Shown here: positions 6,437 through 61,405 of the stretch, piece after piece
How the letters are laid out: each line of letters starts with the position of its first letter
Position numbering within the stretch: the stretch's first letter is position 1
Assembly (NCBI GenBank): GCA_963402885.1
Contig: OY727095.1
Coordinates: 21,767,001-21,831,000, forward strand
Length of the DNA: 64,000 nt
Direction: 5' to 3'
Origin: Antedon bifida
Taxonomy: Eukaryota; Echinodermata; Crinoidea; Comatulida; Antedonidae
Program-made: the position numbers and the translations under genes
Notes under the pieces: model-generated
What the model saw: only the letters and a program-made list of their open reading frames with translations
Told to the model about the DNA's origin: nothing
Database searches by the model: none

Positions 6437-6549
6437 TCTCTTTCGGTTTTTGGGTAGCCCTGAAAAGGGCTGTTTGGTTTGAGATTGTTTGCGGTTTGTG
6501 GTAGCCCTGAAAAGGGCTGTTTGGTTTGAGGTAGCCCTGAAAAGGGCTG
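6437..6549 (-). terminator. Three histone-type 3' stem-loops with a U7-like purine element
   Basis: On the minus strand, downstream of the RAG1-like stop codon, AGCCCTTTTCAGGGCT occurs three times (6533-6548, 6503-6518, 6456-6471). Each copy is followed by ACC and preceded by CAAAC. This is a 6-bp stem with a UUUC loop and the ACC tail of replication-dependent histone mRNA hairpins; the usual outer GC pair is AU here. After the last hairpin comes CCGAAAGAGATTG (6434-6446), resembling the histone downstream element that pairs with U7 snRNA, at the usual short distance. No AATAAA is seen on this strand between stop and hairpins. Copy B has the same array. That it processes RAG1-like transcripts is inference. 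Confidence 0.75.
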
Positions 6550-6878
6550 TTTGGTTTGAGTTTTTTTTTTTTTTTCTTTAGGGTTTGGCTGCCAACATGG
6601 ATGGCGATGTCTTCACCCAATGTTCCTTCATTGCACTGGTCAGAATACCAAGGTCATCGTTGAATCCACGGATGTTGGGTGTTAAGCTGAGCGTGCATGC
6701 TCTCCCCTCCCTGCTCTCCATGGAATCCCAATCCGAACTTCCATCTTCTTATCCATTCAGACACATGTTCTTCCAGAATGTGCATCTTGGGAGGCTCTGT
6801 TTCTTGAAAGTGTTTCCGAAAGAACTGCACATAATCTTCAATGTCTGATTCTTCAGAGACAAAAAAAAAAATGTAATA

Positions 6879-7090
6879 GATAGACAGACAGGCTAGATAG
6901 ACAGACAGGCTAGATAGACAGACAGGCTAGATAGACAGGCTAGACAGACAGACAGGCTAGACAGGTTAGACAGGCTAGACAGGTTAGACAGACAGGCTAG
7001 ACAGGTTAGACAGACAGGCTATCAGGCTAGACAGACAGACAGGCTAGAGATACAGGCCAGACAGATAGGCTAGAGAGACAGGCCAGACAT
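6879..7090. repeat. Microsatellite (GACAGACAGGCTA-like) in a RAG1-like intron
   Basis: About 210 bp of irregular AGACAGACAGGCTAGAT repeats lie in the intron between the last two coding exons of the RAG1-like gene. The tract is repeated at 41964-42175 in copy B. Confidence 0.95.
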
Positions 7091-8221
7091 CCAGGCAAAT
7101 TTAACTCAATATATTTACAAAAATATTGTTGGTGCTGAAAGAAACTCATCGAAGAATTTAGTGGAGCAGCTGAAGTTGAGATTTTAGTAGAAAAATAATA
7201 AGTATTGATTTTACCAAGCTTCAATATCATCTCCTCTGTGAAAAATGAGGCACAATTGTATTGCCTGTGGCAGTTCCCAAACAAATTAAATAATCTTCCA
7301 TATTTTGTTGTGACACTGACAACATTCTCTTTAATTTCTGGGCTGAGTTCTATTGCAGTCTTGCATATTTTTGTCATAAGTGTTTTGATATTTTCAGGCT
7401 GAAAGTAAATAATTCAATGATAAAATGAATAGTATAGTATAAAAGTCAAATGACAATGACATTACTATAATTATATAACATAAATGAAATACCTTGCAGC
7501 ACTTATGAATATGGTTACCGACAAACGATTTGCCGTGATATGCCTGTCTGTTAACCCTGAAGGATTTCAGCACATCATCAAGTTTTGCCACCAAAGGCCC
7601 TTTTCTCACTTCAGGTAAGTCTTTAGAAATATGGACTGCTTCAGCTCTCTAAAACCAATAAATATATTGTTAGAAAATAAAATAATTCTAAGGAAAAATG
7701 CCACCTGTATAGAAATGTTTTCTAATTGTCTGATTTAAACTTACAACTTGTGCCTCTTGTGCCTCTTGGCTTTGAATCTCGCTAATTATACTCTCAGTTG
7801 TTCCACTGGTGTCACCCAATAGCATAAAGACACTTAAGTAATCTTTAAGTTGGTCTATTCCATTGCGTATGTCTTCTGCCTTGTTTTCTAGGTCTTTGAT
7901 TTGATTTGACATGGCAACGTGCTTTAAGAATGTGGGGATATTGGTAGGAGTTTCGAGACTGTTTTGAAGCAATGCACTATCAGTAGACTTTAAAATGATG
8001 TCGTCCAGTTGCTGGCAAGCTGACTCCAGACTGTTGAAGTTTTTTAAATATAAGCCTAGGCTTATATGTAAGCCAGGAGGACATACCTATTTAAAAAAGT
8101 GAGGGAGCAAAATAATTACCTTGTTTTATGAAATTTAAGAGTCATGCAAGCTTTTAGAAAATAATGTTTTAATACCTACATGGTCAATGGGAACTTGTAT
8201 CAAAGGGCGGGCAATTACATT

Positions 8222-8721
8222 AGGGAGGTTTCGCAACCTTACGAATACGATAACGAAAACGGATACGTCACACATTTGTGAAACTTTTGAGCTGATCCCC
8301 AATTCATATTCGTAAAGCGTATTCGTGTTGACGAATATCACCAGTCATATTCGTAACTACAAAACGAGTATAGTTTTTGATCTATTTTTGCACATTCTGA
8401 ATTTGAATCAGGAACGATTCATGCTTATAATATAATTATAGATTTATTGAAAGTAATTTACTAAAGTAAAGTAAAGTAAATTTTGAGTCAGTCAGTTTTT
8501 AAAGTCCTCACTCGCTTTGATGTTACGCTAGGCCTTAGGCAGCCAAGCACCAAGCAACACGTACACGCGCTTCGCTCAAATTTACCGCAGTCATATTTTG
8601 GACGGCGCTCTCAATATTTCGTTGCCATGCGAAACAGATTTTTACTGGCTTACGAAAACGAATACGTGTGCGTGACGTATCCGTTTTCGTTATCGTATTC
8701 GTAAGATTGCGAAACCTCTCT
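8222..8721. mobile_element. MITE, 500 bp, with about 50-bp terminal inverted repeats (copy A only)
   Basis: Left end 8222-8271 and right end 8672-8721 are inverted repeats starting AGRGAGGTTTCGCAA and running about 50 bp with two or three mismatches. The empty site in copy B reads ACATTATTGTAG; in copy A ATT is found on both sides (8219-8221 and 8722-8724), giving a 3-bp duplication (ATT or TTA). A 3-bp TTA-like target fits Harbinger-type elements. No open frame is convincing. It lies in exon DNA of the RAG1-like gene and disrupts it. Confidence 0.9.
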
Positions 8722-11699
8722 ATTATTGTAGTTCTTTGCTTTTGAAATATTACCACCAGCCTCTCTGAACCTGTCCAAGTATTTCTTCAGAGTGTCCAAT
8801 GTCCTTGGGAGTTGGGATTTGTGTTTTTTGGTTACATGGCACCACAAGCAGTAATGTCGTCCTTTAAAACAAAATTTAATACACATTTGCTTTCAAATAT
8901 CCATCATTTATTAATTGCTAATAATTGCAGTACTGTACCTGTAATACATATATTGTTTGTTTACCGTTTGCACCCGTTAGGCCATATATACGAGCCAAAT
9001 ACTCGTAGTCACCGAATACGAACACTTTGACTTGTTTTCCCCTATTAAGAAAATGAAGCCAGTTAATAATTTGTCTTAATTTACACAAATATATTTGTAC
9101 AATTTTGTGCAATATTTTAATTTTACACATAAATGGTATATTTACCTTAATGTGGAATTTTGCAGCTCTTCGAGTTGAGGCAAGATATCCTTGAGGCCAG
9201 TTCTTAAATTAAAACTGGAATCGGTGGCCTCAAAGCAATTGATGATGATTGTATTATTTTGGGCATTGGGGCGTGGTACATGGCAAAGCTGAAGCATCTG
9301 CTTGAAATTTCCACCACCCTTGTCCCCTCCGATCTTTACCCACATCTCATCTGATGGGATGTGGCCATCGTGCCATGTTAGAAGATTTAATCTGTAAAAG
9401 GTATTGATATTTATTTGATTCATTTTTTAAAATTCAGTAATTAAATTAAATCTGTTAATGAAAGCAAATAAAAAACCTACTTTTCTAGTTCATCATATTG
9501 CTGGCAGATTTTTTTGTTGAGACTTGCAACAGAAACACATGCAGTTTTTTGGATGATTGTATCCCCTGTGTCATTGCAGGAATGTGCCATAGGGACGTAT
9601 TCAGAAATGATGTTGTCGTTAATGATGATGTTTTTTTGGTGCCTCATTTTTGCCTCGCATTCTGTGCTGACACCATATTTTTTTAGCCAGCTTTAAAAAA
9701 AAAATAAAATATTAAAAACTATAATGTTGAGGGTGTTCGATTCAGATACTGCAGAATGTTGATTTGTTATTTACCATTTCAGTTCTCTGTTTTTTTTCCA
9801 TGTTAGGCCAAGATTTGTTTTTAAAGATAGCAAATCACCAGTTGGAAGACGTATCGGACTTTTAAATTGAGAAAACTCATCATCTCTTTGAGCTTCTGAA
9901 TCTCCTCCACTTACTGCCGACCGTACATCATCGATGAATTTACTTCTGTTGTGAACAGTTCTCCAGCCTGCATCAGATGAGCTTTTTCGTGGTATCGGCA
10001 TCGCCATTGTTTTTAGTTTCTGGTTTTTGAAAAAAGGTAATACATTTCTATAGTTGGTGTTATTTTTAGTAATAAAATTAAGTAAACTTGTTAGTTTTTA
10101 TTGAATTTAAGTTTTAAGTTTTTTGTAATAATTAACAATTTGATTATACAGTAATAACCATTAAAAAAGTACCTTTCCTTTAACACTAAACTCAGTTGTG
10201 TTGTTGTTCGACTGTTTCAATTTTGCTTTTAGGATGTGTAGACCAACTTCCTCCATCAGTGGCGTTACTGGAGTACCAAGTGGATGGTTTAATATGTCAT
10301 CTATTTGGTTCGTTTGTTGTAATTGATCACGAGGAGTGACTGGCGTTGATGTTAAGTTAGTTGGCGATGATAGATAACAGTGGTCTGGCAGGCATACATG
10401 GTCACTGATACATTTACATTTCACTACAGTACGACATCTTTTACATACAACAGGAACAGACAGATAACATTCAGCAAAGATTGACTGAACATCGTTAATA
10501 CATGAAAAATGCACAGGTACATTACATACAGAACATTGGACAGTATCACAATCCATATACAACGGTTGAATGCAGGACTTGCACATAACGTGATGGCAAG
10601 ATGTAACCACAGGAAAAGACGAAACAAGTTTACAAATACCACATTTAAAATTATCAAGTGAACTTGAAACATGAAAGGAGCCAGAAATTGGCTGAAGAAA
10701 CGGAGGCTTTAAGTTTTTAAAATGTGTTTCCACTGCAACGGTAGTTGCATGTTTTATTTTATAGCTTTCAGTTGCTAAACCTCTTTTCTTCTTCTTCGGT
10801 CTACCGCCACTTTTCTGTGTCTCAAATTGGGCACATGTACTACAGTCGCCTGTTCTATGATGGGGTTGCCACTGGGTTACATTGCATGGTTTGTTTTTTT
10901 GCAAATATCCCATGCACAGCAGACAGAAATACTTGGGGTGAACACCATCAATATCTTGCAAAATGTTGATGTTTAAAGCAGTTGAAAATTGTGGTTGAAA
11001 GTTGGAACAAGCAAACTGCCTGATTTCCTTGGCTCCTTGTCTGGAGGCATAAAGTTTTAGCCTGTTCCCACATATACGACACAAGTAATTTAGATTTATA
11101 ACATGCTTTTCCATATTCAATTTTAATAAAAGAATGACGTTTTACACAGTGAGGCCTATACTAATATTAATATATTACTAGTATTATTTTGTTAAAGTAC
11201 AGGAAATAGTCTTCAACATCGACCTGAAATAAGAAAAAAATTAGAATAGGCTCAACATCAAGAGTGCATTTTAAGTTTTATTTGATAATAAATAAATAGT
11301 ATCTTAGAATTGAATAATGACAAAAAACTCTGAAAATTTAATTATTACAGAAATTATATGCCTTGTATATTAATTAATGTTTTTATAATGATACTTTTGG
11401 TAATTTGATATGCCTATACTAAAATCGTTTTTTATAATTGTTTTTGCTCACTAAAAATTTTGAAAATTTCACTAAGTATGTATTATTATATTAAAAGTAA
11501 ACATATATTTAAAAAAAATAAAATTATGAATTCTTACCGTAGTTATACGACTTTTAATTGTCTTTTTCGTCGGCGCGATTGTTTGTTTATCGTTGCCAAG
11601 TAACGAAACTACGAAGGTATGTTTACGCCCTCTATTGATGAGTGACGTAACCAGGAAGTATCGAATTTCAGGCTTTTGCATAGCGAGCGAACATACGTG

Positions 11700-27896: not shown

Positions 27897-30051
27897 ACCC
27901 TTTACTCCCATATGAATCTGAAATGTTAAAAATAAATATGTACATAATATTACATACTTTTTATTTTAGTGTATGTGATATCACATGTGCCAGAAAGGAA
28001 TACACACACCGCTATCATCATCATCATCATGATGATCTTTAACCGTAGCAGTAATATACAGTAATATAAAGTTACTTTGTTGTAACCAAGTCCGACTGAT
28101 GACATCATGAACCCCTAATGAATGGTAAAAAATTAACCGTGGAAATGTTCCACTACAATTTACTTACCTGGTACATGTACTGAATGAGCGCATCTTTGTT
28201 GTCAACCCATTCCTTTTCTAATCCCGATTCTGACGAGAATTTAATGCAATCTAACTCGAGCGTTATATCAAAACAATTCGTGTGCAGATAATCATAATCT
28301 TGAAGGCCCTTAAAGGAAATACACAAAATAAATATTGTTTATCATCATGGTTTTGTTTGTTGAATTACCTAAAATTGTGTCCGGTATTACTACATTGGCT
28401 CTCACCAAAACTAACGTTACAAGAAGACGTATTGAGATGATGCTATGCCAAAATCTTGACATCGTTGTACCAATGTACATCCGGGTGTAGGCCTACACCA
28501 CATTTTTTGATAAAACTGAGGAAAAAGTAAACTAAACCACTAAACCGCCAAGTTTGCCATGATGTCATGAGTAGGATTCCCATCAGAATCGACTTTGTTC
28601 TTTATGCCTAATTATCTATCTGAACAGTTTGTAGAACCACGTCAGAGTTGGGCAAACATCATCTCCCTGACGTGAAACTAGTCTGTTACTAGGCCTAGTT
28701 CATATTAGTAGGAAACACTAGGCCTAGTTCATATATTAGTAGGCCTAACCATTATCATATTTAATGTGCTTAAGGAGGTTACAACATTATTATATGTTTA
28801 AATAATAAGAACTCACCTCCTTTGACCGTATACCAACTCGCACCATTGGTTATACCATCTTCAAATGTACGACTGTATATTGAGCATGCGCGTGTTCTAG
28901 TTGACATAGTAGCGTGAAATTGCGAATATGTTCGTGCAAGATGTCTAAAGAGAGAGTCGTCTGGACTCATTGTATAAGATGGTCGCCCGTTAAAGGATCT
29001 TACGTCATCAAATGGATAATTTGCTACCAAATCGCCATCGTGCATGTTGGCAGATAGCACAAAAGGGTATTTCTCAACCCATTCAATGTAAGCTTGTACT
29101 TCGGGTTCAGGCTGTTGAAAAATAGTAAAAACAAATAGTTATACATTTCTAAGTTCAAAACATTTGCTACATTAAACATAACTTGTGTGGCACTGATAAT
29201 TAACACAAAGCATAAACAGTAACTTCAAACAGGATAATTACACAATCAAACGTTATGTAATGTGCTGATAAATGAACACGATGATGTCATATCACTACCA
29301 TATTTGGGCACATCACAGTTTTTGTTTTTGTTAAACTGGTTTGATAGTGTAGACAGAGCTTAAAATCATAACATCATAACAACGTCCGTTCCCAATTACA
29401 TGCATGTCAACTATTGCGATAATTTTCCAAATTCAATAAGATAGATAGTAGAGAAAGCTTGATAATAACTAGGCCTAAGGGTCCGTTCAGGCTTAGTTAT
29501 TTACCCGGGTAGCAAGCTGGTTTCACGGGCACAGTTATCGCTAACTTTGGTGGGTAGGAAACCAACTTAACCTGGCAAAACAACTAAGCCGAAACGAGTC
29601 CTAAGTTGCGTGTGCTTGCATACAAATCATTAAAAAAACAAAATTAATTTACCACATAATTCGTCGTATCTTTGCCGTACCCCAGATGATGATTTTTGCC
29701 ACCAATAATTTCATTTCGATACATAATTGTATTTAGCCGCGGAAAGTTCCTGTTTAAATCAACAGAATGCAAATTCTCACGACCATAGGCATCAATAACC
29801 ATATCCTGAAATTAAAACATTAAATATCATAGACAATATTTAATAATTTAGTCGACCTTGAGAGTTATGATTTTGGTGCAAACGTTAGGTACAAAAAGTT
29901 CTTATTCTGGCTTAGTTTCAATCTAGTCCACTGATGCATGGTATAGTTACATGAACAAGTCGCTATACCATTTTATTTCTTGCAAACAGATTTAATATAT
30001 TTGTCATGGGGATTGGTTTTAAAGTACCTAACATCGAGATCACTCATCATC

Positions 30052-34008
<3,957 letters not shown>

Positions 34009-37765: not shown

Positions 37766-38689
37766 GGATCAACCTGAGTTTTCGGCATGTATTGAATATA
37801 GGACTATTCCATTATTATTTATAGGGGTGTTAGTCAATATGTTGGGTGTGCCAGGCTTGTTGAGGCTTCTATTGTTCGTGTCATTGTGCCAATTGTTTTG
37901 TATTTCACTGTGTTTGAGAAAAACAAACAAAAAACTGCTGCTGTAGTTAGCCTATAGCTTTTATTATGTGTCTGTAAATTATATCGTATTTTACACTATA
38001 TAGGCCCTAACATGTTATGTTATAGGCCATCAACAGTTAAATCATGTCATGTTTTATTTTACATTTCATGTAATACAGTATTGTTTTTTTTTTCTCAACA
38101 GCCGAATCAAGTTATATAGCCTCTTACAAATAACAAGAAAAAATACATTCAAACGTTATTCACAATAAAGAGAAAACATACAAAGAACTTATTTATTTAT
38201 TTATGTTTTAATTTATATAAATCCAAAGGCAAATTAATGAAACAATGACAATGATGTGGGTATCAGTGGCTGGATCTCAATAGAGATACAAAAAAAAACG
38301 AAAAGCTAAATCAAAACGATAAAGTAAAACAGCTAGAAAAACAATATATATAAATACATCCATGTTTGTTTTTTTCACAACCGTTTATGACTTTAAAACA
38401 TTCAGTACACTAAAGGCATAAGATTAAGCAAAACATACATTGTGTAACATATTTAATTTAAGGTATACCTGTATATGTTTTATTTCATCGACCCAGTTTT
38501 AAGTGTTATTTAGTAGTGTCATGTTTGGTTCAACTCAATGAGTTAGCAATATGTTTGTGAGGTTCTCTCTCCAGCTGATCCTGACACAAAAACTAAAATA
38601 GTCAGAAATAAAATTGCAGAGCTTTCTCTCATGCAACACACACTAACCCTTCCCCAGTACAAGATATATAGGGCCTACACTGTTAAAAA

Positions 38690-39210
38690 AATTCTTATAA
38701 AAAAACGGTAAATTACTGGCAATCTGGACGCCAGTAATTTACCGTAATGTAGAATTACAGGTACTGTTGAAAATAAATTACTGTAAAACTACAGTAAATT
38801 GTTGGTCATAAAGTCGGTTGTCTACCGTAATGTAGAATCACAGGTACTGTTGAAAATAAATTACTCTAAAACTACAGTAAATTACTGTTAACTTGAAAGT
38901 CGGATGTCAACTATAACGTAAAATCACAGGTACTGTTTCTAATAAATTACTACAGTATATTACTGTTAATCTGAAAGTCTGTTTGTCATCAATAACGTAA
39001 AATCACGGGTACCGGCCATAAATAAATTACTGTAAAACTACAGTAAAATTACTGTTGATTTCAAAGGAAGTGGTCTACCATAATGTAGAATCAAGAGTAA
39101 TGTTGATAAATAACTGTAAAACTACATTAAAATTACTGTCAATTTCAATGGTCAATGGTAATGTAAAATCACAGGTACTGTTATTAATAAATTACTGTAA
39201 AAGATTCAGT
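38690..39210. repeat. 83-bp minisatellite, inverted relative to 4195-4715
   Basis: Reverse complement of the copy A array, about six diverged units inside the X element. Confidence 0.8.
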
Positions 39211-39447
39211 GAATTCCAACCAAACAAAATATTACAAAAATATAAATACCATACAGACAAAATAAATACATGCCAATAATCTTATTTCAATAACTTATAA
39301 CAATAACAAACTCAATTATAATGTTTCTTTTTCTACTTGTCTAAATATCTTGTTTCTGTCATGTTCTTACAGTATGTTCCCTACAATGTTCATTGTATCT
39401 GAACTTGATCTGGGATTCTCTGTAACGTTTCTTTTTTTAAAATAAAC

Positions 39448-40263
39448 AACATTTTTTATAAATCTCTGCCTACAGTATATTACATAGATGTTTTCAATCT
39501 TCAAAGTACGTCTTCTATTAAAATTTGTTTATCACCTATTTCAATATAAAATATTTAAGTAATTGATATTGATATTTACAATCAATCGAAAATCTTTAAA
39601 AAACCAATCTATTAAAATTAGACCTACCATCTATGCTTGATCATTAAATAATTAATGTGGATGTTACAATCATCAAAATATGCCTTATATTAAAATGACC
39701 ATCAAATAAATGGAAGGTTTATTCCAGAGTACAGGACCTGGATGTGGTAGATGGACACTAAACAGTAAACCACAGTAAGAATTTTGTTGATCCAATAACA
39801 GGAGTCCACACTCAAAACATAGAATCCTACTGGAATCGTGAAAAATTAAAGTTAAAAAGAATGGGTGTAAATGGGAATGGTTACCGGAATACCTTGACGA
39901 ATTTATGTGGCGAGAAAGATATGGCATAATATAAATTAAACAGATTAAGTAAGTTAAAATAGTATATGTTCCTTGTGCCTTATTAAATAATGTTAAAGTT
40001 CTTGTGCCTTATATTTGAATAAAGTTTGAAGAATGTATTTTTCGATCTATCGATTTTTTTCTTGTTGTTTGTAGAGGCTATTTGATTCAACTGTTGAGAA
40101 AAAAACAAACATGGATGTATTTATATAAATTAAAATATAAATTGGATATTTTATATAAATTAAAACATAAATTAAATACGATTAAAATGTATGTATATGA
40201 ATCTTTTTCTTGATCTTTTCTTGTTATTTGTAGAGGCTACTTGATTTAACTGTTGATTAAAAA
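39448..40263. other. Interior of X element found only in copy B
   Basis: AT-rich DNA with repeated phrases like TTTCTTGTTATTTGTAGAGGC (about 40060 and 40221) and ATATAAATTAAAAYATAAATT. No gene is seen. Confidence 0.5.
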
Positions 40264-41513
40264 AACATGTTAGGGCCTATATAGTGTAAAATACGATATA
40301 ATTTACAGACACATAATAAAAGCTATAGGCTAACTACAGCAGCAGTTTTTTGTTTGTTTTTCTCAAACACAGTGAAATACAAAACAATTGGCACAATGAC
40401 ACAAACAATAGAAGCCTCAACAAGCCTGACACACCCAACCCAACATATTGACTAACACCCCTATAAATAATAATGGAATAGTCCTATATTCAATACATGC
40501 CGAAAACTCAGGTTGATCCGCTTTATTTGCCTGTCGTGTCTATATATTATATTCATGAAATGTATTATTTGAAACTCGCACTTACTTTTTTAATACCTTA
40601 TTCATTTGTTTTATTATTGATTGAAAGAAAGAAAATAAATGTTTACGTTGAATTGTTGAATTTATAGTCAACAACTATTTGAAATTGAAGCCACATGGTC
40701 GACTCATGGTCGACGATATCGCCCATGCTGGAAAATAATTTGAGTAAATAATTACATTTTATGAAGAAAAATAGTAGAAATTCATATAATATTGAACATT
40801 TCTACTTTCCAAAATGTGTCAAATAAGTATTTAATGATAATTTATGCATTTCGGATCTTCTAAATTTTATTTTTTTCATTTATTTGATTTTTTAAATTAA
40901 ATTGGTTTTATTACTAACCCTATTTTAAATGGTACGTTCCATGCGGCACTAACGCGCATGCGTAGCTTCGGTTAAAAAGCAACTTTGGACTGTACCATTT
41001 TGTAGAAAGGTAATTTTATAAATGTAATTTATTTTGCTTATTATTATTGTCGTTTAAAATTGTTTTATGTATTGTATGTAAATAAAATAATTTGGTTGTG
41101 TTTCAGGAAACAATATATAATTTGCTATAATGTTAAACAGATGGTTGTGGTGTTGAACAAACAGTATCCTTTCTATTTTCTAGTGGACCAAATAAAATTT
41201 CTTATATCTTCTACTACTAGTACTAACTACCCTAGTGACAACCCGTCAACCGATTCAGTTCCAAACCAATACAATCATTCACGAAAACATCACCTCAAGA
41301 GGAATATTTGTTGCCACAGACACTTACCTTTATTTTAGTGATGTTAATAAAGAGGCTGCAGTGAGGGTTGCCTAGGTATAGTACTAGGATTTAGCAGCTA
41401 TTGTCGAATTATATCTATTGTGTAAGTGGTTGAATTGCATTTGTTCAGTAGTAGTAGTACTAGTACATTGCATTGTTGTGAACACATAATAAATACACAC
41501 TATTGCTTAACAA

Positions 41514-41626
41514 TCTCTTTCGGTTTTTGGGTAGCCCTGAAAAGGGCTGTTTGGTTTGAGATTGTTTGCGGTTTGTGGTAGCCCTGAAAAGGGCTGTTTG
41601 GTTTGAGGTAGCCCTGAAAAGGGCTG
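41514..41626 (-). terminator. Three histone-type 3' stem-loops and U7-like site after the RAG1-like stop (copy B)
   Basis: The hairpins AGCCCTTTTCAGGGCT lie on the minus strand at 41610-41625, 41580-41595 and 41533-41548, followed by the purine-rich CCGAAAGAG at about 41515-41523. The intact gene's stop codon (41656-41658) is only about 30 nt before the first hairpin, separated by an A-rich run, so the array sits where a 3' UTR processing site should be. Structure and spacing match histone 3' ends. Use by this gene is inferred. Confidence 0.75.
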
Positions 41627-41655
41627 TTTGGTTTGAGTTTTTTTTTTTTTTTTCT

Positions 41656-44600
41656 TTAGGGTTTGGCTGCCAACATGGATGGCGATGTCTTCACCCAATG
41701 TTCCTTCATTGCACTGGTCAGAATACCAAGGTTATCGTTGAATCCACGGATGTTGGACTTGAGGGTGTTAAGCTGAGCGTGCATGCTCTCCCCTCCCTGC
41801 TCTCCATGGAATCCCAATCCGAACTTCCATCTTCTTATCCATTCAGACACATGTTCTTCCAGAATGTGCATCTTGGGAAGCTCTGTTTCTTGAAAGTGTT
41901 TCCGAAAGAACTGCACATAATCTTCAATGTCTGATTCTTCAGAGACAAAAAAAAAATGTAATAGATAGACAGACAGGCTAGATAGACAGACAGGCTAGAT
42001 AGACAGACAGGCTAGATAGACAGGCTAGACAGACAGACAGGCTAGACAGGTTAGACAGGCTAGACAGGTTAGACAGACAGGCTAGACAGGTTAGACAGAC
42101 AGGCTATCAGGCTAGACAGACAGACAGGCTAGAGATACAGGCCAGACAGATAGGCTAGAGAGACAGGCCAGACATCCAGGCAAATTTAACTCAATATATT
42201 TACAAAAATATTGTTGGTGCTGAAAGAAACTCATCAAAGAATTTAGTGGAGCAGCTGAAGTTGATATTTTAGTAGAAAAATAATAAGTATTGATTTTACC
42301 AAGCTTCAATATCATCTCCTCTGTGAAAAATGAGGCACAATTGTATTGCCTGTGGCAGTTCCCAAACAAATTAAATAATCTTCCATATTTTGTTGTGACA
42401 CTGACAACATTCTCTTTAATTTCTGGGCTGAGTTCTATTGCAGTCTTGCATATTTTTGTCATAAGTGTTTTGATATTTTCAGGCTGAAAGTAAATAATTC
42501 AATGATAAAATGAATAGTATAGTATAAAAGTCAAATGACAATGACATTACTATAATTATATAACATAAATGAAATACCTTGCAGCACTTATGAATATGGT
42601 TACCGACAAACGATTTGCCGTGATATGCCTGTCTGTTAACCCTGAAGGATTTCAGCACATCATCAAGTTTTGCCACCAAAGGCCCTTTTCTCACTTCAGG
42701 TAAGTCTTTAGAAATATGGACTGCTTCAGCTCTCTAAAACCAATAAATATATTGTTAGAAAATAAAATAATTCTAAGGAAAAATGCCACCTGTATAGAAA
42801 TGTTTTCTAATTGTCTGATTTAAACTTACAACTTGTGCCTCTTGTGCCTCTTGGCTTTGAATCTCGCTAATTATACTCTCAGTTGTTCCACTGGTGTCAC
42901 CCAATAGCATAAAGACACTTAAGTAATCTTTAAGTTGGTCTATTCCATTGCGTATGTCTTCTGCCTTGTTTTCTAGGTCTTTCATTTGATTTGACATGGC
43001 AACGTGCTTTAAGAATGTGGGGATATTGGTAGGAGTTTCGAGACTGTTTTGAAGCAATGCACTATCAGTAGACTTTAAAATGATGTCGTCCAGTTGCTGG
43101 CAAGCTGACTCCAGACTGTTGAAGTTTTTTAAATATAAGCCTAGGCTTATATGTAAGCCAGGAGGACATACCTATTTAAAAAGTGAGGGAGCAAAATAAT
43201 TACCTTGTTTTATGAAATTTAAGAGTCATGCAAGCTTTTAGAAAATAATGTTTTAATACCTACATGGTCAATGGGAACTTGTATCAAAGAGCTGGCAATT
43301 ACATTATTGTAGTTCTTTGCTTTTGAAATATTACCACCAGCCTCTCTGAACCTGTCCAAGTCTTTCTTCAGAGTGTCCAATGTCGTTGGGAGTTGGGATT
43401 TGTGTTTTTTGGTTACATGGCACCACAAGCAGTAATGTCGTCCTTTAAAACAAAATTTAATACACATTTGCTTTCAAATATCCATCATTTATTAATTGCT
43501 AATAATTGCAGTACTGTACCTGTAATACATATATTGTTTGTTTACCGTTTGCACCCGTTAGGCCATATATACGAGCCAAATACTCGTAGTCACCGAATAC
43601 GAACACTTTGACTTGTTTTCCCCTATTAAGAAAATGAAGCCAGTTAATAATTTGTCTTAATTTACACAAATATATTTGTACAATTTTGTGCAATATTTTA
43701 ATTTTACAGATAAATGGTATATTTACCTTAATGTGGAATTTTGCAGCTCTTCGAGTTGAGGCAAGATATCCTTGAGGCCAGTTCTTAAATTAAAACTGGA
43801 ATCGGTGGCCTCAAAGCAATTGATGATGATTGTATTATTTTGGGCATTGGGGCGTGGTACATGGCAAAGCTGAAGCATCTGCTTGAAATTTCCACCACCC
43901 TTGTCCCCTCCGATCTTTACCCACATCTCATCTGATGGGATGTGGCCATCGTGCCATGTTAGAAGATTTAATCTGTAAAAGGTATTGATATTTATTTGAT
44001 TCATTTTTTAAAATTCAGTAATTAAATTAAATCTGTTAATGAAAGCAAATAAAAAACCTACTTTTCTAGTTCATCATATTGCTGGCAGATTTTTTTGTTG
44101 AGACTTGCAACAGAAACACATGCAGTTTTTTGGATGATTGTATCCCCTGTGTCATTGCAGGAATGTGCCATAGGGACGTATTCAGAAATGATGTTGTCGT
44201 TAATGATGATGTTTTTTTGGTGCCTCATTTTTGCCTCGCATTCTGTGCTGACACCATATTTTTTTAGCCAGCTTTAAAAAAAAAATAAAATATTAAAAAC
44301 TATAATGTTGAGGGTGTTCGATTCAGATACTGCAGAATGTTGATTTGTTATTTACCATTTCAGTTCTCTGTTTTTTTTCCATGTTAGGCCAAGATTTGTT
44401 TTTAAAGATAGCAAATCACCAGTTGGAAGACGTATCGGACTTTTAAATTGAGAAAACTCATCATCTCTTTGAGCTTCTGAATCTCCTCCACTTACTGCCC
44501 ACCGTACATCATCGATGAATTTACTTCTGTTGTGAACAGTTCTCCAGCCTGCATCAGATGAGCTTTTTCGTGGTATCGGCATCGCCATTGTTTTTAGTTT

Positions 44601-45695
44601 CTGGTTTTTGAAAAAAGGTAATACATTTCTATAGTTGGTGTTATTTTTAGTAATAAAATTAAGTAAACTTGTTAGTTTTTATTGAATTTAAGTTTTAAGT
44701 TTTTTGTAATAATTAACAATTTGATTATACAGTAATAACCATTAAAAAAGTACCTTTCCTTTAACACTAAACTCAGTTGTGTTGTTGTTCGACTGTTTCA
44801 ATTTTGCTTTTAGGATGTGTAGACCAACTTCCTCCATCAGTGGCGTTACTGGAGTACCAAGTGGATGGTTTAATATGTCATCTATTTGGTTCGTTTGTTG
44901 TAATTGATCACGAGGAGTGACTGGCGTTGATGTTAAGTTAGTTGGCGATGATAGATAACAGTGGTCTGGCATGCATACATGGTCACTGATACATTTACAT
45001 TTCACTACAGTACGACATCTTTTACATACAACAGGAACAGACAGATAACATTCAGCAAAGATTGACTGAACATCGTTAATACATGAAAAATGCACAGGTA
45101 CATTACATACAGAACATTGGACAGTATCACAATCCATATACAACGGTTGAATGCAGGACTTGCACATAACGTGATGGCAAGATGTAACCACAGGAAAAGA
45201 CGAAACAAGTTTACAAATACCACATTTAAAATTATCAAGTGAACTTGAAGCATGAAAGGAGCCAGAAATTGGCTGAAGAAACGGAGGCTTTAAGTTTTTA
45301 AAATGTGTTTCCACTGCAACGGTAGTTGCATGTTTTATTTTATAGCTTTCAGTTGCTAAACCTCTTTTCTTCTTCTTCGGTCTACCGCCACTTTTCTGTG
45401 TCTCAAATTGGGCACATGTACTACAGTCGCCTGTTCTATGATGGGGTTGCCACTGGGTTACATTGCATGGTTTGTTTTTTTGCAAATATCCCATGCACAG
45501 CAGACAGAAATACTTGGGGTGAACACCATCAATATCTTGCAAAATGTTGATGTTTAAAGCAGTTGAAAATTGTGGTTGAAAGTTGGAACAAGCAAACTGC
45601 CTGATTTCCTTGGCTCCTTGTCTGGAGGCATGAGGTTTTAGCCTGTTCCCACATATACGACACAAGTAATTTAGATTTATAACATGCTTTTCCAT
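41656..45695 (-). CDS. RAG1-like transposase, intact ten-exon gene (copy B)
   Basis: Coding exons: 44754-45695, 44356-44600, 44062-44271, 43727-43972, 43546-43622, 43264-43442, 42830-43171, 42578-42733, 42300-42483, 41656-41936; all phases agree, giving about 953 aa. Residues 10-110 carry the RAG1 zinc-binding signature (LCRICGN ... DIDGVHPKYFC ... WQPH). About 165-210 is a RING finger (CGIC ... SCHHVMCKSC ... CSVC). The RNase-H-like core has D489 (VKIGGDKGGG), D559 (FGDYEYL), CLWC at 578-581, PPGLHISLG near 636, H884-x4-H889 and E910 (GEQGGESMHA). In mouse RAG1 the second Asp lies 19 residues before the first zinc Cys, as here, and the Glu 20 after the last zinc His, against 21 here. It resembles the N-RAG-TP type of RAG-related transposons. 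No RAG2-like gene is seen. It could be a live transposase or a domesticated gene. Confidence 0.9.
41964..42175. repeat. Microsatellite (GACAGACAGGCTA-like), copy B
   Basis: Same intronic tract as 6879-7090. Confidence 0.95.
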
Positions 45696-47582: not shown

Positions 47583-48900
47583 ATGGCAGTCGGCACCGCT
47601 AGTTCGTCGTTGCCAAACATTGTTTTATCAACAATAACTGATAATTTATCTACAACTGAACGTCGAAGATATCTTCAGAAAATATCAGGTATTGGAAAAG
47701 ACCCATATTTGATTGATAAAGATGAATTTTCGCACGAAATCGACAGTCTGCCGGACCTCACAGCGATGGATATCATGGCATACTTAATCGCTACGCCAAG
47801 CCCATACACAGCTGAAAATTTTCAAGCCTACAAATCTACAGAGGCTTACAATCAATTTGCTAATGGATTTCTGTCGGATATGGGCATTTTTTGTCCCCCA
47901 CACAGACCAGATTTTAAAGTTGTTAGAGGAGATGTAAGTAATATTGAATTTACTTTGTTGTAGTAGGTCTTCCGCCTCCTCCTAGTTAGTAACTAGGAGG
48001 AGGCTAGTAATTATTAGCAGTAGTAGCCTACAGCCTATGCCTTGTGTAAGACTGGGCCTAGCTAGATAGAAGGGATACAATTCTACTACTTATTTATTTA
48101 ATAATTTTATTAAGTTATAACCTTTTTTGGAGAAAAGCCTATGCCCTTTTTTATGTATGTAAAACCATTATTTTATGGTACAACCATGAAGTTATTTTAA
48201 TTTATATCCGGACCATGGATGGATAAGCATGGTTAATTACTGATAAGCAGGAAACCGACTAATTGAAATAAACAATTATTAATAGTACTGTATAATTAAT
48301 AAACACAATGCAATCTTTTATAATGTCTGTAAAGGAATAATATTATTTGTTGTTAATATTATTTTATTGACTATTGTTTTTCATTTTTCAAGGTGTTGCA
48401 CTCACAGTCGGTTTCTAAGAAACCGTTATCACCTTGGGTTATCTGCAGTGAGTAAAGCTTATTGGATGGAACCAAACCGAAAGTATGTGGTGGCAAAACC
48501 AGTGGCTTCAATTGACGTTTCATCAGCAAAGGCCAAAAAAAGAAAACTAGATGAGTCGATTGATGAGAGCACCCCAGATCCACCAGTTTCAACTACTACA
48601 ACATCAGTGGAAACACGCACAACGGCTTTCCATGTCATGAATGACCCAGGGCTTGCATTCCTTGTCGAGCAGCTGGCACTGATTGCACCAAAATCTGTAG
48701 TCCTGAGTACTTTGCCTAAATACTGTGAGGCATTTGTTCCAGTAGAGGTTGAGGAAAAGTTTCCACCTGTTATGAGCAAGCTGTATGATGCAGAGGCGCT
48801 GATGCTTTCGTATCCTGAGCTGTACTGTCTGTTGTCATGTACTCAATTGGTAATGTTGAACTTAAAATTGAGTACTTTTGACGGACACCACCGATGACCC
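47583..48900 (+). pseudogene. SWIM/YqaJ-type accessory gene, internally deleted (copy B)
   Basis: Exon 1 is 47583-47933 and exon 2 starts at 48393. It has the same missing zinc finger and missing nuclease as 13003-14320, so both losses predate the duplication. Residue changes against copy A include E to A and G to S in the later part, as expected without strong constraint. Confidence 0.6.
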
Positions 48901-49900
48901 TCTCCACATGAATTCGTAAATGAGCAATTTTTCTTATGGTTTCCACCTCAAGAGCAGACAGCTGTTGTTTTCCCTTCTTAAAAGCAGGAATCTTTGCTTC
49001 GCAACCATAAAACCCAGCATCATCTTTTATGTCAAAACCTCGGTCGGCAAGGATGACATCCCCAGGTAGCAGATAATCAAAAAAATCTGACGTCAATGTT
49101 ATGGTCTTATCTGTACCTCTGCCTCCCCATGCTGCAGACAAATATGAAATTTACCTGCATGGAGTGCAGCCAATTAAAAACTTTACTGTATTGTGGTGCT
49201 TGTAGCTGAAAAACAGTTGTGCCCTCGCTTCAAGACTTGAGGGCCGCTCGCAAAAAACCTCAAAACAGTCAATTATTACTGCTACCTTCGACTCCAATGC
49301 AATTCGAAATTGCATTGGCATGGTTTTCCACAACACCTCCCTTTCTGGCCATACAATAAGCTCTTGTTCAGCATAGACATGGCATCCAGTCCCGTATTAA
49401 AAACTCGACACTGTTGAGTCACTTATATGAAATCGGTACGCAATGTCCTGATTTCTAAGGTTCAGTCTAAGTTTGAACAGTACAATTAGTAACTGCTGGA
49501 ATCGACTTACTGATGTTCTACTCGGGAATCTTTTTTTAACTAGTTCAAAAACCAACATCAATACTGCAAATGAAGGCAACCCTGTGTAGAAATGAGTTCG
49601 CTCATTGTCATTTTTAAAAGTTAACTCTGTTATTGGCGACTCCTGTAACAAGGCCTGTGACTGGGCCTGTAAGACATCTATGTCAGCACAACACATAGTA
49701 GAGTTTGGTGTTGATATGTCAACACAGACACATATGTTTTCTACAGGAGAAACATCTTCCATATTAGCCTCACCTAATTGGAGATCTAACAAAACTTCCA
49801 CAGCAATACATTTCTTTTTTTTTTCAGTTCTTTTTTGTGACCTTTCGTATCGCTCCTTATCACGTTTTGCGGTGTGATCATCCAGGTCCAGCCTGCCCAT
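48835..49900 (-). pseudogene. DDE_Tnp_4 transposase of an ISL2EU-like element (copy B)
   Basis: Same fragments and frame breaks as 14255-15320: HTH at 49397-49900, first Asp fragment at 49151-49336, second Asp and Glu at 48835-49141. The DDE residues persist but the frame does not. Confidence 0.75.
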
Positions 49901-50699
49901 GTCTTGAGTTGGAGCCCAACATTAGCGAACGTATGTACACTACGTTGCCCCTCGCGGTACTCGTTCCACAATGTTGTAAGTCTCTCGTTTGCCACCTTGC
50001 TGCCTGTTCGTGTTCTTCTCAATTCATCTCTGTATATCATCTCTACATTGATCGATACTGTCGAATTTCTTGGATGGTTACTAAATGTGAACATAAGCCG
50101 ATTTAAAAAGGCATGTTTAACCGATTTATCATGCACGTCCGATCAGTGTGACAGCGCCCTCCATTTCTCCAATATGCGCCGGGCCCATGTGTGGATCGAG
50201 GCTAAGAATCAAACTTTTCAAACGACAAATTACAGTTAATTATCAAACTTAAATAGTAGTATATGAACTGGAACTAAATAATTTGATTTAACTTACCACG
50301 TAGACAACGCTGGTCGAGTCCTTCTTACAACAGAGCATATTTTATACTTATAGATACAATAAACCGTGTTAATCAAAACCCGAAAAGTAAGGTTGTGAAG
50401 GAGCAGCATACGCAAAGTAAACATACGTAACCAAGTAACTTTGCGCGCCTTTTCAATGGCACATGATTACGCAACTTCAACTATTATCATGATTTGACAA
50501 GTGCCTGAAACTTTATTTTTCCTGGTTGAAATGAAATCATTAATAGCAATTACTTAAAAAAAATATTATACTGTATACTGAGATGAAGTGAGGTCATGTC
50601 AATTTTTTTTAAATAAGTATGTAAGTATGCTTTGTATTGGAATAGGTTTGTGCACGCTGCATAAGTCCTTTGTACGCTGGACAAAGATTTCTGTGCAAT

Positions 50700-56400: not shown

Positions 56401-56414
56401 AAATGCATAATCAT
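53406..56414. other. No gene recognised, copy B (pairs with 18460-21913)
   Basis: AT-rich DNA with the 21-bp repeat at 55788-55882 and TACGGTAT words near 55180-55340. No supported gene. Confidence 0.5.
55788..55882. repeat. 21-bp tandem repeat, five copies (copy B)
   Basis: Same array as 21288-21383 with no unit gained or lost. Confidence 0.95.
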
Positions 56415-56524
56415 AGTAGTAAAATACACTGGTACAGCCCCCGTAGAGGGCGTTTGAGGGGATGACATTAGTTAATCCTATTATAATTAATACAATGGTA
56501 AACAATGGTAAGAAAGTAAGACAT

Positions 56525-56905
56525 ACATGCATTTGTTTGATCAATTCCGATATGTACTTAAGAAGTGCCGACATGTACTTAACCATCTTCCGGAAATGTT
56601 AACAATGGAGCTTCGCAATGAATGAATAGTGTATCGTCAAACAAGATGTTAGTTTCACCATTTTTCAAAAAAGTAATGTTAAAGTGGCGGTAATTTTAAA
56701 AGATTTAAACAAAAGGTGTGTTAGTATAATTTACAGTGGCGGTCTTTATATGCATTTGTTTGATCAATTCCGATATGTACTTAAGAAGTGCCGACATGTA
56801 CTTAACCATCTTCCGGAAATGTTCACAATGGAGCTTCGCAATGAATGAATAGTGTATCGTCAAACAAGATGTTAGTTTCACCATTTTTCAAAAAAAAAAT
56901 ACAAC

Positions 56906-56937
<32 letters not shown>

Positions 56938-57050
56938 GCTCAATGGAGCTTCGCAATGAATGATTGGTGTAACGTGAAGCAAGATGTTAAGTTTCACTAT
57001 TTTTCAAAAAATACAACAATAATAATAATAATAATAATAATATTAATATG
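56525..57050. repeat. Tandem 226-bp duplication with (AAT)n tracts
   Basis: A unit beginning ATGCATTTGTTTGATCAATT occurs at 56525-56671 and 56751-56893. A third partial copy (AATGGAGCTTCGCAATGAAT) lies at 56942-57010. (AAT)n microsatellites follow the second and third. No coding frame was recognised. Confidence 0.9.
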
Positions 57051-57276
57051 CTTTATTTAATCACGGATACTTAACTCAACTAAAAGTTGTTTTTCAGTAA
57101 GACCGTGCTCAAAGGAAAACACCAATAATAATAAATGTAAAAAGCAGATATCAAATCAAATAATAAAACAATTACAGAAGCAAAAAACAAAAGCAGATAA
57201 TAAAACAATTACAATGAAATAAAATGAAACAAGGATATGGCAATGACAATTGTCTTTTTCAAATTAAATAACATCT

Positions 57277-57340
57277 CCAAGCTACAAGAATGACAATTAC
57301 GATTGGTTAGAACAGTTCCCGTAATTTCAATGTAATCTTT
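57277..57340 (+). pseudogene. Relic of a PC4 gene 3' end
   Basis: This stretch repeats the last 14 codons, stop and downstream bases of the PC4-domain gene (57898-57965), ending in the same NDNYDWLEQFP. A second PC4 gene copy therefore once lay to the left, pointing to tandem duplication within this element. Confidence 0.75.
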
Positions 57341-57418
57341 CATCAGTACCAGTTTTACAACGCACTAAACTCACTTCTACATTCTTGATTAAGAGAATTT
57401 AGTACAGTTTTCATCAGT

Positions 57419-57946
57419 ATGAACTTCTACAAACCAGCAGCTGATTACATCGATTCTAAATTAGCTGATAAGGCTAAGGCTACTATGCAGCGAGTTATGA
57501 GGTCTAGCAAGAGACAGAGAGTAGAAGATGAACCAAATACAAGCGCTTCTTTTCAACAAGATTGTCGACCGGTGGTAAAGAATCACTTTTTTAAGAATGA
57601 TAGTCGAATTACAGTTACAGCTACTAAACGTATTAAACTTAATGAAACGAGGCACGTCGTTGCTCAACGTTGGGGAGATGATATGTACGTATGTATCCGA
57701 GAATACTATCAATCAGAACCAGATGGTAAATTTAAACCTGGGAAGAAAGGTATTAATTTAACATTGATGCAGTGGAGAGATCTAATGGAGCAAAAGGACA
57801 TGGTCGATGAAATGTTTTTAGAATTGGATGGATTTGACGATTGTGGAAACGGTGTAGACATGAATGACAATGGAATGCCAGAAACACAAATGACCAAAAA
57901 AAGCTACAAGAATGACAATTACGATTGGTTAGAACAGTTCCCGTAA
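57419..57946 (+). CDS. PC4 (p15) single-stranded-DNA-binding domain protein
   Basis: A single-exon 175-residue ORF from a true ATG. Residues 1-75 are basic and low in structure (SSKRQRVEDE). Residues 78-130 hold a PC4 domain (QRWGDDMYVCIREYY, then FKPGKKGINLTLMQWRDLM), with the basic strand and the KPGKKGI turn typical of the family. The tail is acidic and asparagine-rich. PC4 proteins bind single-stranded DNA and act in transcription or replication. Lack of introns and the neighbouring integrase suggest a mobile or viral-type gene rather than the host coactivator. Confidence 0.85.
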   Translation: MNFYKPAADYIDSKLADKAKATMQRVMRSSKRQRVEDEPNTSASFQQDCRPVVKNHFFKNDSRITVTATKRIKLNETRHVVAQRWGDDMYVCIREYYQSEPDGKFKPGKKGINLTLMQWRDLMEQKDMVDEMFLELDGFDDCGNGVDMNDNGMPETQMTKKSYKNDNYDWLEQFP

Positions 57947-58380
57947 TTACAATGTAATCTTTTGGAAAACGGAACGGATTGATGATCTTGAATTGAACAA
58001 TTTTGGAAATGGGAGTACCCACTTTGAATGTGCATTTAAACATTTTAACCTGCGTGTTATTTTTTTGGTGTGGTTTTTTCAGTACTAAATAACATGCTAG
58101 TGTATTTGTAAAAGTAATTTAAAAAATTTAAATTTATCATTTGAATTAATTTGTTATTTCTTCATTTCTATATATAAAACTATTTTTTTTCTCTATTTAA
58201 TTGTTATTATGTATTTTGAATTTTATGTTTTTTAAAGTGTATTGCGTGTTTTGCAATAGAATGTGTATTGAAATAAATTTTGTTTTTTTAACAACAACAA
58301 CGAAAATGAAATTTGATCTTTGCGTATTATTTAAGTATTTGAATTATTTTTATAATTTTTCATTTGGATGATTGAGGGTA
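57947..58380. promoter_or_regulatory. Intergenic stretch with a recurring module before the integrase
   Basis: About 90 bp ending near 58340 (AATAGAATGTGTATTGAAATAAATTTTG ... AAATTTGATCTTTGCGT) recurs at about 59702-59790 and, inverted, at 61440-61560. Two of the three copies lead into the start of the integrase frame, so it probably carries the integrase promoter and/or a preceding polyadenylation signal. Confidence 0.5.
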
Positions 58381-58743
58381 ATGAGTATGAGAAATTGAGA
58401 AATGTGTATTACGACCCTAAACACCCCGGTAGTTTTGGTGGTGTGGATCGACTTTATCAAATTGTAAAAGACGATTGAAATATTACCAAGAAACAAGTTC
58501 AGGAATGGCTGAGCAATCAAGATACATATACTTTACACAGATCTATTCAACGTAATTTCCAACGAAACCGAGTACTTGTAATGACAATTGATGAACAATG
58601 GGAAATGGATTTGGTTGACTTGACTTCATTAAAACGTTACAATAAGCAAAATACATTTCTTATAACATGCATAGATGTCTTATCTAAATATGCGTGGGTT
58701 ATACCGATAAAGAACAAGTCTTCAGATACCATATTAAAAGCTT
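58381..58743 (+). pseudogene. Polinton/adintovirus-type integrase, first tandem copy (broken)
   Basis: The frame reads VYYDPKHPGSFGGVDRLY, then the QDTYTLH zinc-region linker, DEQWEMDLVDL with a catalytic Asp, and CIDVLSKYAWV with the second. A TGA at about 58470 interrupts it, a 2-nt loss near the start codon breaks the N-terminus, and the sequence ends before the catalytic Glu. It belongs to the retroviral-like integrases found in Polinton and adintovirus elements (the F54H12.3 type of transposon-derived protein). Confidence 0.75.
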
Positions 58744-59218
58744 GAGAAATGTGTATTATGACCCTAAACACCCCGGTAGTTTTGGTGGTGTGGATCGACT
58801 TTATCAAAATGTAAAAGACGATTTAAATATTACCAAGAAACAAGTTCAGGAATGGCTGAGCAATCAAGATACATATACTTTACACAGATCTATTCAACGT
58901 AATTTCCAACGAAACCGAGTACTTGTAACGACAATTGATGAACAATGGGAAATGGATTTGGTTGACTTGACTTCATTAAAACGTTACAATAAGCAAAATA
59001 TTTCATTAGGTCAAACACGATTGTTTAGATTTCGCCATGGTGCTACACGTGGAATGAGACACAAAAGAAGTATTGAACCAGTAAATGTTGATCTTAAACA
59101 CGGTAGCTTACTATTGATGAATTATCCAACTAACGAGTATTGGTACCATTCGCTGCCTAAAAAACCATCCATCAAACTACCAAGAATAAATCTGACATTT
59201 AGAGATATTAAAAGATGA
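58742..59218 (+). pseudogene. Chimera: integrase fragment fused to an AlkB-like dioxygenase C-terminus
   Basis: A second integrase copy, offset by 348 bp from the first, lacks the TGA and reads open to KRYNKQN. It then switches in frame to ISLGQTRLFRFRHG, HGSLLLMNYPTNEYWYHSLP and LPRINLTFRDI. That is the AlkB (ALKBH2/3-type) 2-oxoglutarate/Fe(II) core end, with the last iron-binding His and the 2-oxoglutarate-binding Arg. The HxD iron pair is missing. The fusion looks like a deletion joining two genes of the element, not a designed enzyme. The open frame has no upstream ATG of its own. Confidence 0.75.
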
Positions 59219-60916: not shown

Positions 60917-61329
60917 AACGCTCGACAAACAATTGATAATGGATGTAATGGTCAAGAAAGTTACAACTTAAAACATTTATTTTTGTTTTTTAAAAAGAAG
61001 TTGTAACATAGAAACTAATTTTGTCAGGAAATGTATTTTTATCATTTATGTGGTTTATTTGTGTTTAGAAAGTTACAACATTAACATTTAATTTGGTCAA
61101 AAATGTGAATATACGGAGCCGATTGTAATTTTTAATCCTTAGTATAGTGAGAGATTTTATAAACAAAAAAAGAGCGAACGGAAATTAATGATTGCAGATT
61201 AGACATATAGAAATGGATTGAAATTGGAAATCCACATGATCAAAGAAAAGAAACCCATTGTTTCGACAGAAGCTAATGACATTTACAAAGGATGACACAG
61301 TTTGAATAGAGTAATTACCGTATAACATA

Positions 61330-61405
61330 ATTAAATTTTACACCACCAATACTACCGGGGTGTTTAGGATCGTAATATACTTTTCTTAAGTACTCATCCA
61401 TACTC
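61330..61405 (-). pseudogene. Inverted integrase 5' end fragment
   Basis: The minus strand reads MSMDEYLRKVYYDPKHPGSI and then diverges. This is the undamaged N-terminus of the integrase described at 58381-58743, preceded (61440-61560) by the same 90-bp module. It shows the original start codon context and an inversion within the element. Confidence 0.75.

Follow-up and report, generated by a model that had tools for sequence, protein, structure and literature searches.

Introduction

Replication-dependent histone genes are typically intronless, and the stem-loop type of 3′ end that they carry has, to our knowledge, been described in animals as confined to histone messages. Here, we describe a transposase gene that appears to depart from this pattern, as its stop codon is followed by three tandem stem-loops of the histone type. 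The gene lies in a stretch of 64,000 nucleotides (nt) from the crinoid Antedon bifida (GenBank assembly GCA_963402885.1, contig OY727095.1, positions 21,767,001 to 21,831,000), which is referred to as a whole as the window and is numbered from its first nucleotide; loci elsewhere in the genome are given by contig (C1, C5, and so on) or by a locus number (L001 onwards). A first-pass annotation, made from the sequence of the window, had taken the gene for a RAG1-like transposase of the N-RAG-TP kind.

On the protein side, the closest described systems are the Chapaev transposases, to which DUF1280 corresponds and which form one clade with RAG1 (PMC3985635). A second paper places Chapaev in the Transib superfamily and describes two Chapaev subgroups with a RAG1-like N-terminal domain and a RING, and in this respect the family is already known (PMC4411706). 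The C(2)C and H(3-4)H motifs are common to the whole CMCT clade and RAG1 (PMC12730594), and N-RAG-TP is described in a review as wholly RAG1 N-terminal-like sequence (PMC8355894). The Antedon gene shares with Chapaev elements of the CMC/CMCT group the DUF1280 core, the RAG1-like N-terminal zinc domain, the RING, and the D-D-C(2)C-H(4)H-E order, but it differs in its three histone-type 3′ stem-loops and in having been amplified within larger duplicated units. With RAG1 and RAG1L (ProtoRAG, TransibSU) it has the N-terminal zinc region, the RING, and the motif order and spacing in common but no match to a RAG1 core model, and its N-terminal region is joined to a full transposase core. Its 3′ end resembles that of replication-dependent histone genes, with their RF00032 stem-loop and histone downstream element, in the distance from stop to stem, the flank, the loop, and the downstream box; in contrast to these genes, it encodes a transposase and has nine introns, tandem stem-loops, an A-U closing pair, and a downstream AATAAA.

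As judged from sequence, Chapaev and Tc1-type transposons in this genome probably use the histone mRNA 3′-end pathway. No published report of histone stem-loops on transposase genes was found among the titles and abstract beginnings listed from the open-licence literature. If the proposal is true, mobile elements would be coupled to S phase at the molecular level and in a direct way. Such a coupling would account for the ability of cut-and-paste elements to jump at a time when they gain copies, and the stem-loop binding protein (SLBP) and U7 would have a new class of substrate.

A histone-type 3′ end behind a Chapaev gene

The gene is read from the minus strand (45695-41656), and the predicted splicing bears out the ten exons with agreeing phases and the roughly 953 codons without a stop that had been annotated: nine GT-AG introns of consistent phase join the exons into 953 codons plus a stop, giving a protein of 953 amino acids (aa) (Table 1). 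Beyond the stop codon, A-rich sequence leads into three repeats of CTCAAACCAAAC-AGCCCTTTTCAGGGCT-ACC, the last of which is followed by CAAAAACCGAAAGAGATT; the host histone gene L034, taken for comparison, reads CTCAAACCAAAC-GGCTCTTTTCAGAGCC-ACCCAAATATACAAAAGAGATT. Features of a histone 3′ end are present, namely, a 6-bp stem, a UUUC loop, an AC(C) flank, and proximity to the stop codon, and the flank, the loop, and the AAAGAGATT box match those of the host histone genes. The stem begins 30 nt past the stop; of the nine host histone 3′ ends measured in the same way, seven have a distance of 28 to 32 nt, and the other two have 50 and 90 nt. Folding of positions 41510 to 41660 gives a z score of -5.5 with the third hairpin formed.

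Table 1. Positions of the transposase gene, its 3′ signals, and the Tc1-type loci (window coordinates unless a contig is named)
Feature	Position	Strand	Basis or remark
Exon 1: RAG1-type N-terminal zinc region (Chapa domain) and RING	44754..45695	-	Splicing, Pfam, profile versus PDB
Exon 2	44356..44600	-	
Exon 3	44062..44271	-	
Exon 4: D489 (first catalytic Asp), DUF1280 core	43727..43972	-	Splicing, Pfam, alignment
Exon 5: D559 (second Asp)	43546..43622	-	
Exon 6: CxxC 578/581	43264..43442	-	
Exon 7	42830..43171	-	
Exon 8: RQAYHG motif	42578..42733	-	
Exon 9	42300..42483	-	
Exon 10: HxxxxH 884/889, Glu 910, stop codon	41656..41936	-	
Histone-type stem-loop 1, stem beginning 30 nt past stop	41601..41630	-	RF00032, 19.6 bits (gathering 34)
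Histone-type stem-loop 2	41556..41600	-	RF00032, 24.7 bits (gathering 34)
Histone-type stem-loop 3 and downstream element	41509..41553	-	RF00032, 30.5 bits, E 3.7e-7 (gathering 34)
AAAGAGA box, at the histone downstream element position of host histone genes	41514..41520	-	
241-bp stretch with stem-loops, missing in the relative at C8:20.962 Mb	41403..41643	-	
AATAAA poly(A) signal, past stem-loop 3	41329..41334	-	
Second gene copy, disrupted in exon 6 (inverted-repeat insertion of 500 bp) and in exon 10 (8-bp deletion)	6675..11114 (about)	-	
Second copy: three stem-loops	6453..6549	-	
Tc1 loci with stem-loop	C7:18.64, C8:15.13, C8:19.22 (query), C8:21.44, C9:14.12 Mb		Among matches listed
Tc1 loci with stem-loop	C10:16.735, C10:16.940, C12:13.10, C12:22.62, C14:9.83 Mb		Among matches listed
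Tc1 loci without stem-loop	C10:16.770, C10:16.811, C10:16.937, C8:19.334 Mb		Among matches listed; partial or with stop

The AGCCC form of the motif occurs at 61 genomic sites when one mismatch at most is allowed, with none for the reversed control, and 53 of these sites stand behind the 18 Chapaev copies that keep the last exon, leaving 8 elsewhere. All 18 copies have stem-loops, 17 of them three and the remaining one two, which an insertion has displaced to 327 and 374 nt from the stop. To compare the stems with one another, a covariation set of 15 stem-loops was assembled from six of the AGCCC type (from both transposons), one Tc1 stem-loop of the GGCTC type, and eight from histone genes, and was set against 500 shuffles. 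The 15 stem-loops are 100% paired, and in two of the six pairs both partners are exchanged (G-C to A-U and U-A to C-G); the covariation score, the number of paired cells, and the number of cells in which both partners change lie above those of all 500 shuffles. Taken together, we regard the sequence evidence for a histone-type 3′ signal as strong.

The same ending in a Tc1-type family and a BEN-domain gene

One Tc1/mariner (DDE_3) family in the Antedon genome likewise has a histone-type 3′ end, although its transposase superfamily is unrelated to Chapaev. At L050 (C8:19216451-19217250), the broken end of a Tc1/mariner-type transposase, which matches Pfam DDE_3 under the cut-off (E 0.0013), is followed by a stop, 25 nt, three AGCCC stem-loops (RF00032, 30.0, 20.8, and 16.7 bits), and a AGAGATTTGAT box. 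At L051 (C8:15134681-15135080), the Tc1 DDE end is unbroken (DDE_3, E 5.8e-13). Its DND motif is separated from the Glu by 34 residues when counted by hand from the first Asp and by 32 when counted from the second. The stop is followed after 21 nt by a canonical stem-loop that scores 40.1 bits, above the cut-off of 34, and then by AAAGAGATTT. The Tc1 frame at this locus is open for 356 codons, and consequently no intron is necessary there. Some 720 bp away, a convergent gene with a BEN domain (PF10523, E 3.7e-7) has a stem-loop of its own, which scores 39.0 bits and lies 27 nt past the end of the gene (L052, C8:15133621-15134020).

The family was surveyed with the 64-aa C terminus of the L050 transposase, which has 15 matches at 14 loci; among the matches listed, 10 of the 14 loci have a stem-loop on the same strand about 20 to 35 nt past the coding end, a stop codon being assumed at these loci save the two that were read, and at C9:14.12 Mb, where the alignment stops short of the coding end, the stem-loop lies 33 nt beyond it. 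The genome contains 214 sites of the stem-loop pattern (121 and 93 on counting by exact patterns, RGYYYTTTTCARRRCYAC and its two halves, which miss variants such as that of L052), and simple arithmetic puts a chance match within 50 nt on one strand at about 2 in 100,000 per locus. A chimeric Tc1 query matched 2561 proteins, the best 120 of which carry DDE_3.

A few further observations belong to these stems. A pair of opposed stem-loops similar to that of L051 and L052 is found at C10:16.939 Mb, and 25 dispersed AGTTCTTTTCAGAACTAC hairpins (for example, at C1:17591605 and C13:5370123) represent another histone-like stem. On the minus strand of L050, positions 4 to 54 give a weak match to U6 small nuclear RNA that overlaps the last stem-loop and the part downstream of it; at 18.5 bits and E 0.064, this match was taken as chance.

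Proposed mechanism and the points that weigh on it

It can be hypothesized that these transposons would borrow the host's replication-dependent histone 3′-end pathway, with its stem-loop binding protein and U7 small nuclear ribonucleoprotein. The transposase message would then end at the stem-loop, without poly(A), and its production would fall mainly in S phase, at which time replicated DNA allows cut-and-paste elements to increase in number. In the Chapaev gene, a module of about 240 bp would have joined beside the stop codon, after which the block would have been amplified by segmental duplication. We consider this account of the Chapaev gene as a whole, a histone-type 3′ end that recruits the host pathway and a module gained before amplification, to be likely. 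The broader proposition that Chapaev, Tc1/mariner, and the adjoining BEN-domain gene each took over the histone 3′-end signal, and that their replication-timed, poly(A)-free messages may be non-histone members of the class, is favored with somewhat less confidence.

Several observations weigh against this account. The Chapaev gene has its nine introns, unlike replication-dependent histone genes, and the AATAAA stands about 175 nt past the stem-loops; both speak against exclusive use of the histone 3′-end pathway, and with the AATAAA downstream, ordinary polyadenylation is possible, such that the gene could have either kind of 3′ end. A scan of the whole window with RF00032 at the gathering threshold of 34 listed nothing, as the Chapaev stem-loops score below it, and the host histone stem-loops (nine, in eight loci) reach 39.9 to 44.5 bits. 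The minimum-energy fold of 41510 to 41660 pairs stem-loops 1 and 2 with each other. Two of five covariation measures are not above the shuffles (both-side-changed pairs, 360/500; pair types, 500/500), and the two stem-pair changes always co-occur and may represent one event. Among the matches listed, none of 50 testable Chapaev last exons outside the cluster is followed by a stem-loop in a comparison by eye with exact patterns, which would miss variants, five more exons on C16 being covered in part, and the histone-type 3′ end is therefore no trait of the Chapaev family. In the Tc1 survey, 4 of the 14 loci listed are without a stem-loop, and the 10 positives include the query locus, which had been picked for its stem-loops. 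Finally, the stem-loops stand behind Chapaev copies that are decaying neutrally.

The last of these points bears on the alternative that survives best, in which the stem-loops would be relics of histone genes or hairpins acting at the DNA level, for example as sites bound by the transposase or as portions of the terminal repeats, and would contribute nothing to the mRNA 3′ end. A position behind decaying copies would suit this alternative, as would the lack of the stretch in a relative and, among the matches listed, in other Chapaev families; tandem hairpins could serve DNA binding. A relic, on the other hand, would have to be accommodated within 30 nt, which is too short for a histone coding region, and the stem-loop is in sense with the gene ahead of it wherever one is present, which holds also for the two convergent genes at one Tc1 locus. 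The spacing from the stop is near that of histone genes, and although stem pairs change together, the loop, the flank, and the downstream box are retained. On balance, we hold relics or DNA-level hairpins to be an improbable explanation, at perhaps one chance in five, and a signal for the 3′ end of the message to be the better one.

Origin of the stem-loop module

A relative of the gene at C8:20961912-20962293, which has a TGA within its own last exon, runs from just past the stop directly to the equivalent of window position 41402 and so is without the 241-bp stretch. It is possible that the stretch was deleted in this relative. As listed stem-loops of the exact patterns are also missing behind the 50 testable last exons outside the cluster, the most likely course is that a single lineage acquired the module late, before amplification of the block. 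As to where it came from, the stem and the triple arrangement are common to the Chapaev block and the Tc1 locus L050, and in a BLAST comparison, L050 scored 63.9 bits versus 49.1 for the best histone gene. A Tc1 source was dropped as the favored origin when the last stem-loop and its flanks alone gave 46.0 for the best histone module and 45.5 for L050. The source may thus have been either a Tc1-type element or a histone gene, with the comparison favoring neither.

Copies, duplication, and selection

The genome-wide copy count proposed by the first-pass annotation gives 20 full-length matches to exon 1 at 99 to 100% identity, plus three partial ones. Nineteen of the 20 lie on both strands of a block of about 650 kb (C8, 21.556-22.206 Mb), and one is on the small contig C22. 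Thirteen of the 20 copies were read, 8 with wide flanks within the window and 200 kb of further sequence and 5 with 1.5 kb on each side (L002, L004, L005, L006, and L008); the two copies in the window correspond to L001 and L007, and L003 is the same as one of the 8. Similarity among these copies extends far past the gene and is interrupted by numerous insertions and breaks: a stretch is missing in L004, L006 diverges at 46457, and L008 has an insertion. Since sequence well outside the gene is shared among the copies read, they look to have arisen by segmental duplication and not by transposition wherever flanks were read. No convincing terminal inverted repeats were found around the gene, and no target-site duplications, where Chapaev elements are defined by 5′-CA..TG-3′ terminal inverted repeats with short target-site duplications. 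Position 56414, tried as a shared element end, was dropped, as six other units continue past it with one common sequence.

All ten exons are free of insertions and deletions in 4 of the 13 copies read, the window gene included. Five are visibly broken: the second window copy; L008, in which the edge alone of the same 500-bp insertion was read; one copy with a one-base gap and a stop; one with a one-base gap; and one that is truncated. The remaining four were observed in their 5′ half alone. The 39 distinct substitutions among the 13 copies comprise 4 silent changes, 34 replacements, and 1 stop, where 21%, 74%, and 5% would be expected at random; they look neutral, with no sign of purifying selection. 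The earlier suggestion that the enzyme could still be active is weakened by this and by the confinement of the copies to one amplified block. As a separate observation, the insertion in exon 6 of the second copy (8222-8722) is an inverted-repeat element of about 500 bp with ends GGGAGGTTTCGCAA.. and a 4-bp ATTA duplication, and its edge is also present in the copy at C8:21.746 Mb.

Beyond the block, 55 other matches to the last exon on C1, C5, C6, and C8 to C16 represent other Chapaev families. Seven of these share equal scores and are spread over six contigs (C5, C9, C10, C11, C12, and C15), and as such they seem to be another Chapaev family that has recently transposed.

It could be argued from the confinement of all 20 full-length exon 1 copies to one block or one small contig, from flanks that are shared where read, and from the lack of convincing terminal repeats around the gene that this is a domesticated host gene family that expanded locally and not a transposon. 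The substitutions, however, give no indication of selection keeping the protein, 5 of the 13 copies are visibly broken, four more having been observed in their 5′ half alone, and Chapaev families related to this one are scattered across many contigs, with equal scores in some cases. We therefore consider domestication quite unlikely and continue to regard the gene as a transposase gene of the Chapaev type.

Assignment of the transposase and its relation to RAG1

The spliced protein matches two Pfam models above their cut-offs, DUF1280 (E 6.3e-16; 59.1 bits versus 25) and PF12560 (RAG1_imp_bd; E 8.7e-7; 29.2 bits versus 23.3); the RING model reaches 18.8 bits, under its cut-off of 27.9, but RING structures do match. 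At E values of 0.001 or less, 32 proteins match, the best being a predicted protein of the feather star Antedon mediterranea with 47% identity over 100% of the length (E 2.6e-276), and it follows that the gene is not a product of chance. The other homologues come from sea stars, sea urchins, a sea cucumber, a brittle star, an acorn worm, amphioxus, and Hydra, and some are unnamed.

Of the 32 proteins, 26 were aligned, and DUF1280 is found in all 26 and PF12560 in 6. The residues D489, D559, C578/C581, H884/H889, and E910 stand at the positions claimed for them: both Asp residues are invariant in the 26 sequences, each Cys of CxxC is present in 25, the two His residues of HxxxxH are present in 26 and 25, and Glu 910 is kept in 24. 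Their mouse RAG1 counterparts, D708, C727, C730, H937, H942, and E962, were confirmed by the chain numbering in PDB.

The comparison of profiles with RAG1 that had been proposed earlier succeeds for one part of the protein. A profile of the 26 homologues matches RAG1 residues 147 to 419 in PDB, a region that includes the RING, with E 3.6e-23, and together with PF12560 this supports the annotated RAG1-type N-terminal zinc region and RING. The claim of a RAG1-like DDE core stands in its motifs, as C(2)C and H(4)H lie between the second D and the last E in RAG1-style order and spacing, but the core itself is DUF1280. Pfam listed no RAG1 core model at E of 1 or less for the spliced protein. With the same profile, the collinear RAG1 stretches 710 to 742 and 930 to 1002, which hold the CxxC and HxxxxH..E residues, score between -2.2 and 0.8 bits and are unsupported alone; hhalign against 29 RAG1 sequences aligned the 69-column H..H..E end and nothing else (P 0.003; probability, 10%), and a forced global alignment against the same sequences gave no result. 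A whole-genome search with PF12940 (RAG1 core), run without a positive control, was empty. No RAG2-like domain was found in the ten other open reading frames (ORFs) of the window that were scanned, a genome-wide search not having been made.

On the basis of the DUF1280 and PF12560 matches, the lack of a RAG1 core model, and the published links of Chapaev, the gene encodes a DDE transposase of the Chapaev type (CMC clade), in which an N-terminal zinc region like that of RAG1 and a RING precede the core. That it is instead a true RAG1-core recombinase gene (RAGL or N-RAG-TP), for which the N-terminal region and RING, the near-identical motif spacing, the P value at the C-terminal end, and the collinear profile stretches could be cited, is highly improbable given the strong DUF1280 match without a RAG1 core model, the low hhalign probability, the lack of a RAG2-like domain in the ORFs scanned, the absence of the name RAG1 among the 32 homologues, and the report that the shared motifs belong to the whole CMCT clade (PMC12730594). 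For the origins of RAG1, this Chapaev gene is one more with a full N-terminal region and introduces no new principle.

Other features of the window

A fold-back-like element with inverted repeats of about 257 bp occupies 37766-40519, with its interior inverted in the other window unit, and is adjoined by a dispersed repeat at 40523-40662. Pieces of a transposase with DDE_Tnp_4 and HTH_Tnp_4, which we take to be Harbinger-like, lie inside the repeated unit at 48770-49921 (minus strand). From 56415 to 64000, the unit departs from the six other units compared, and ORFs there match PC4 (57389-57946) and a 2OG-Fe(II) oxygenase (58688-59218); by eye, part of the latter ORF looks like a possible integrase. 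This stretch could possibly belong to a large virus-like transposon. The duplicated units also contain exons of an M14 zinc carboxypeptidase at 163-594, 28779-29138, and 30214-30645 (minus strand), the first two being assigned by Pfam and the third translating identically to the first. A piece of a reverse transcriptase is present on the minus strand at 26759-27901, with zf-RVT under its cut-off.

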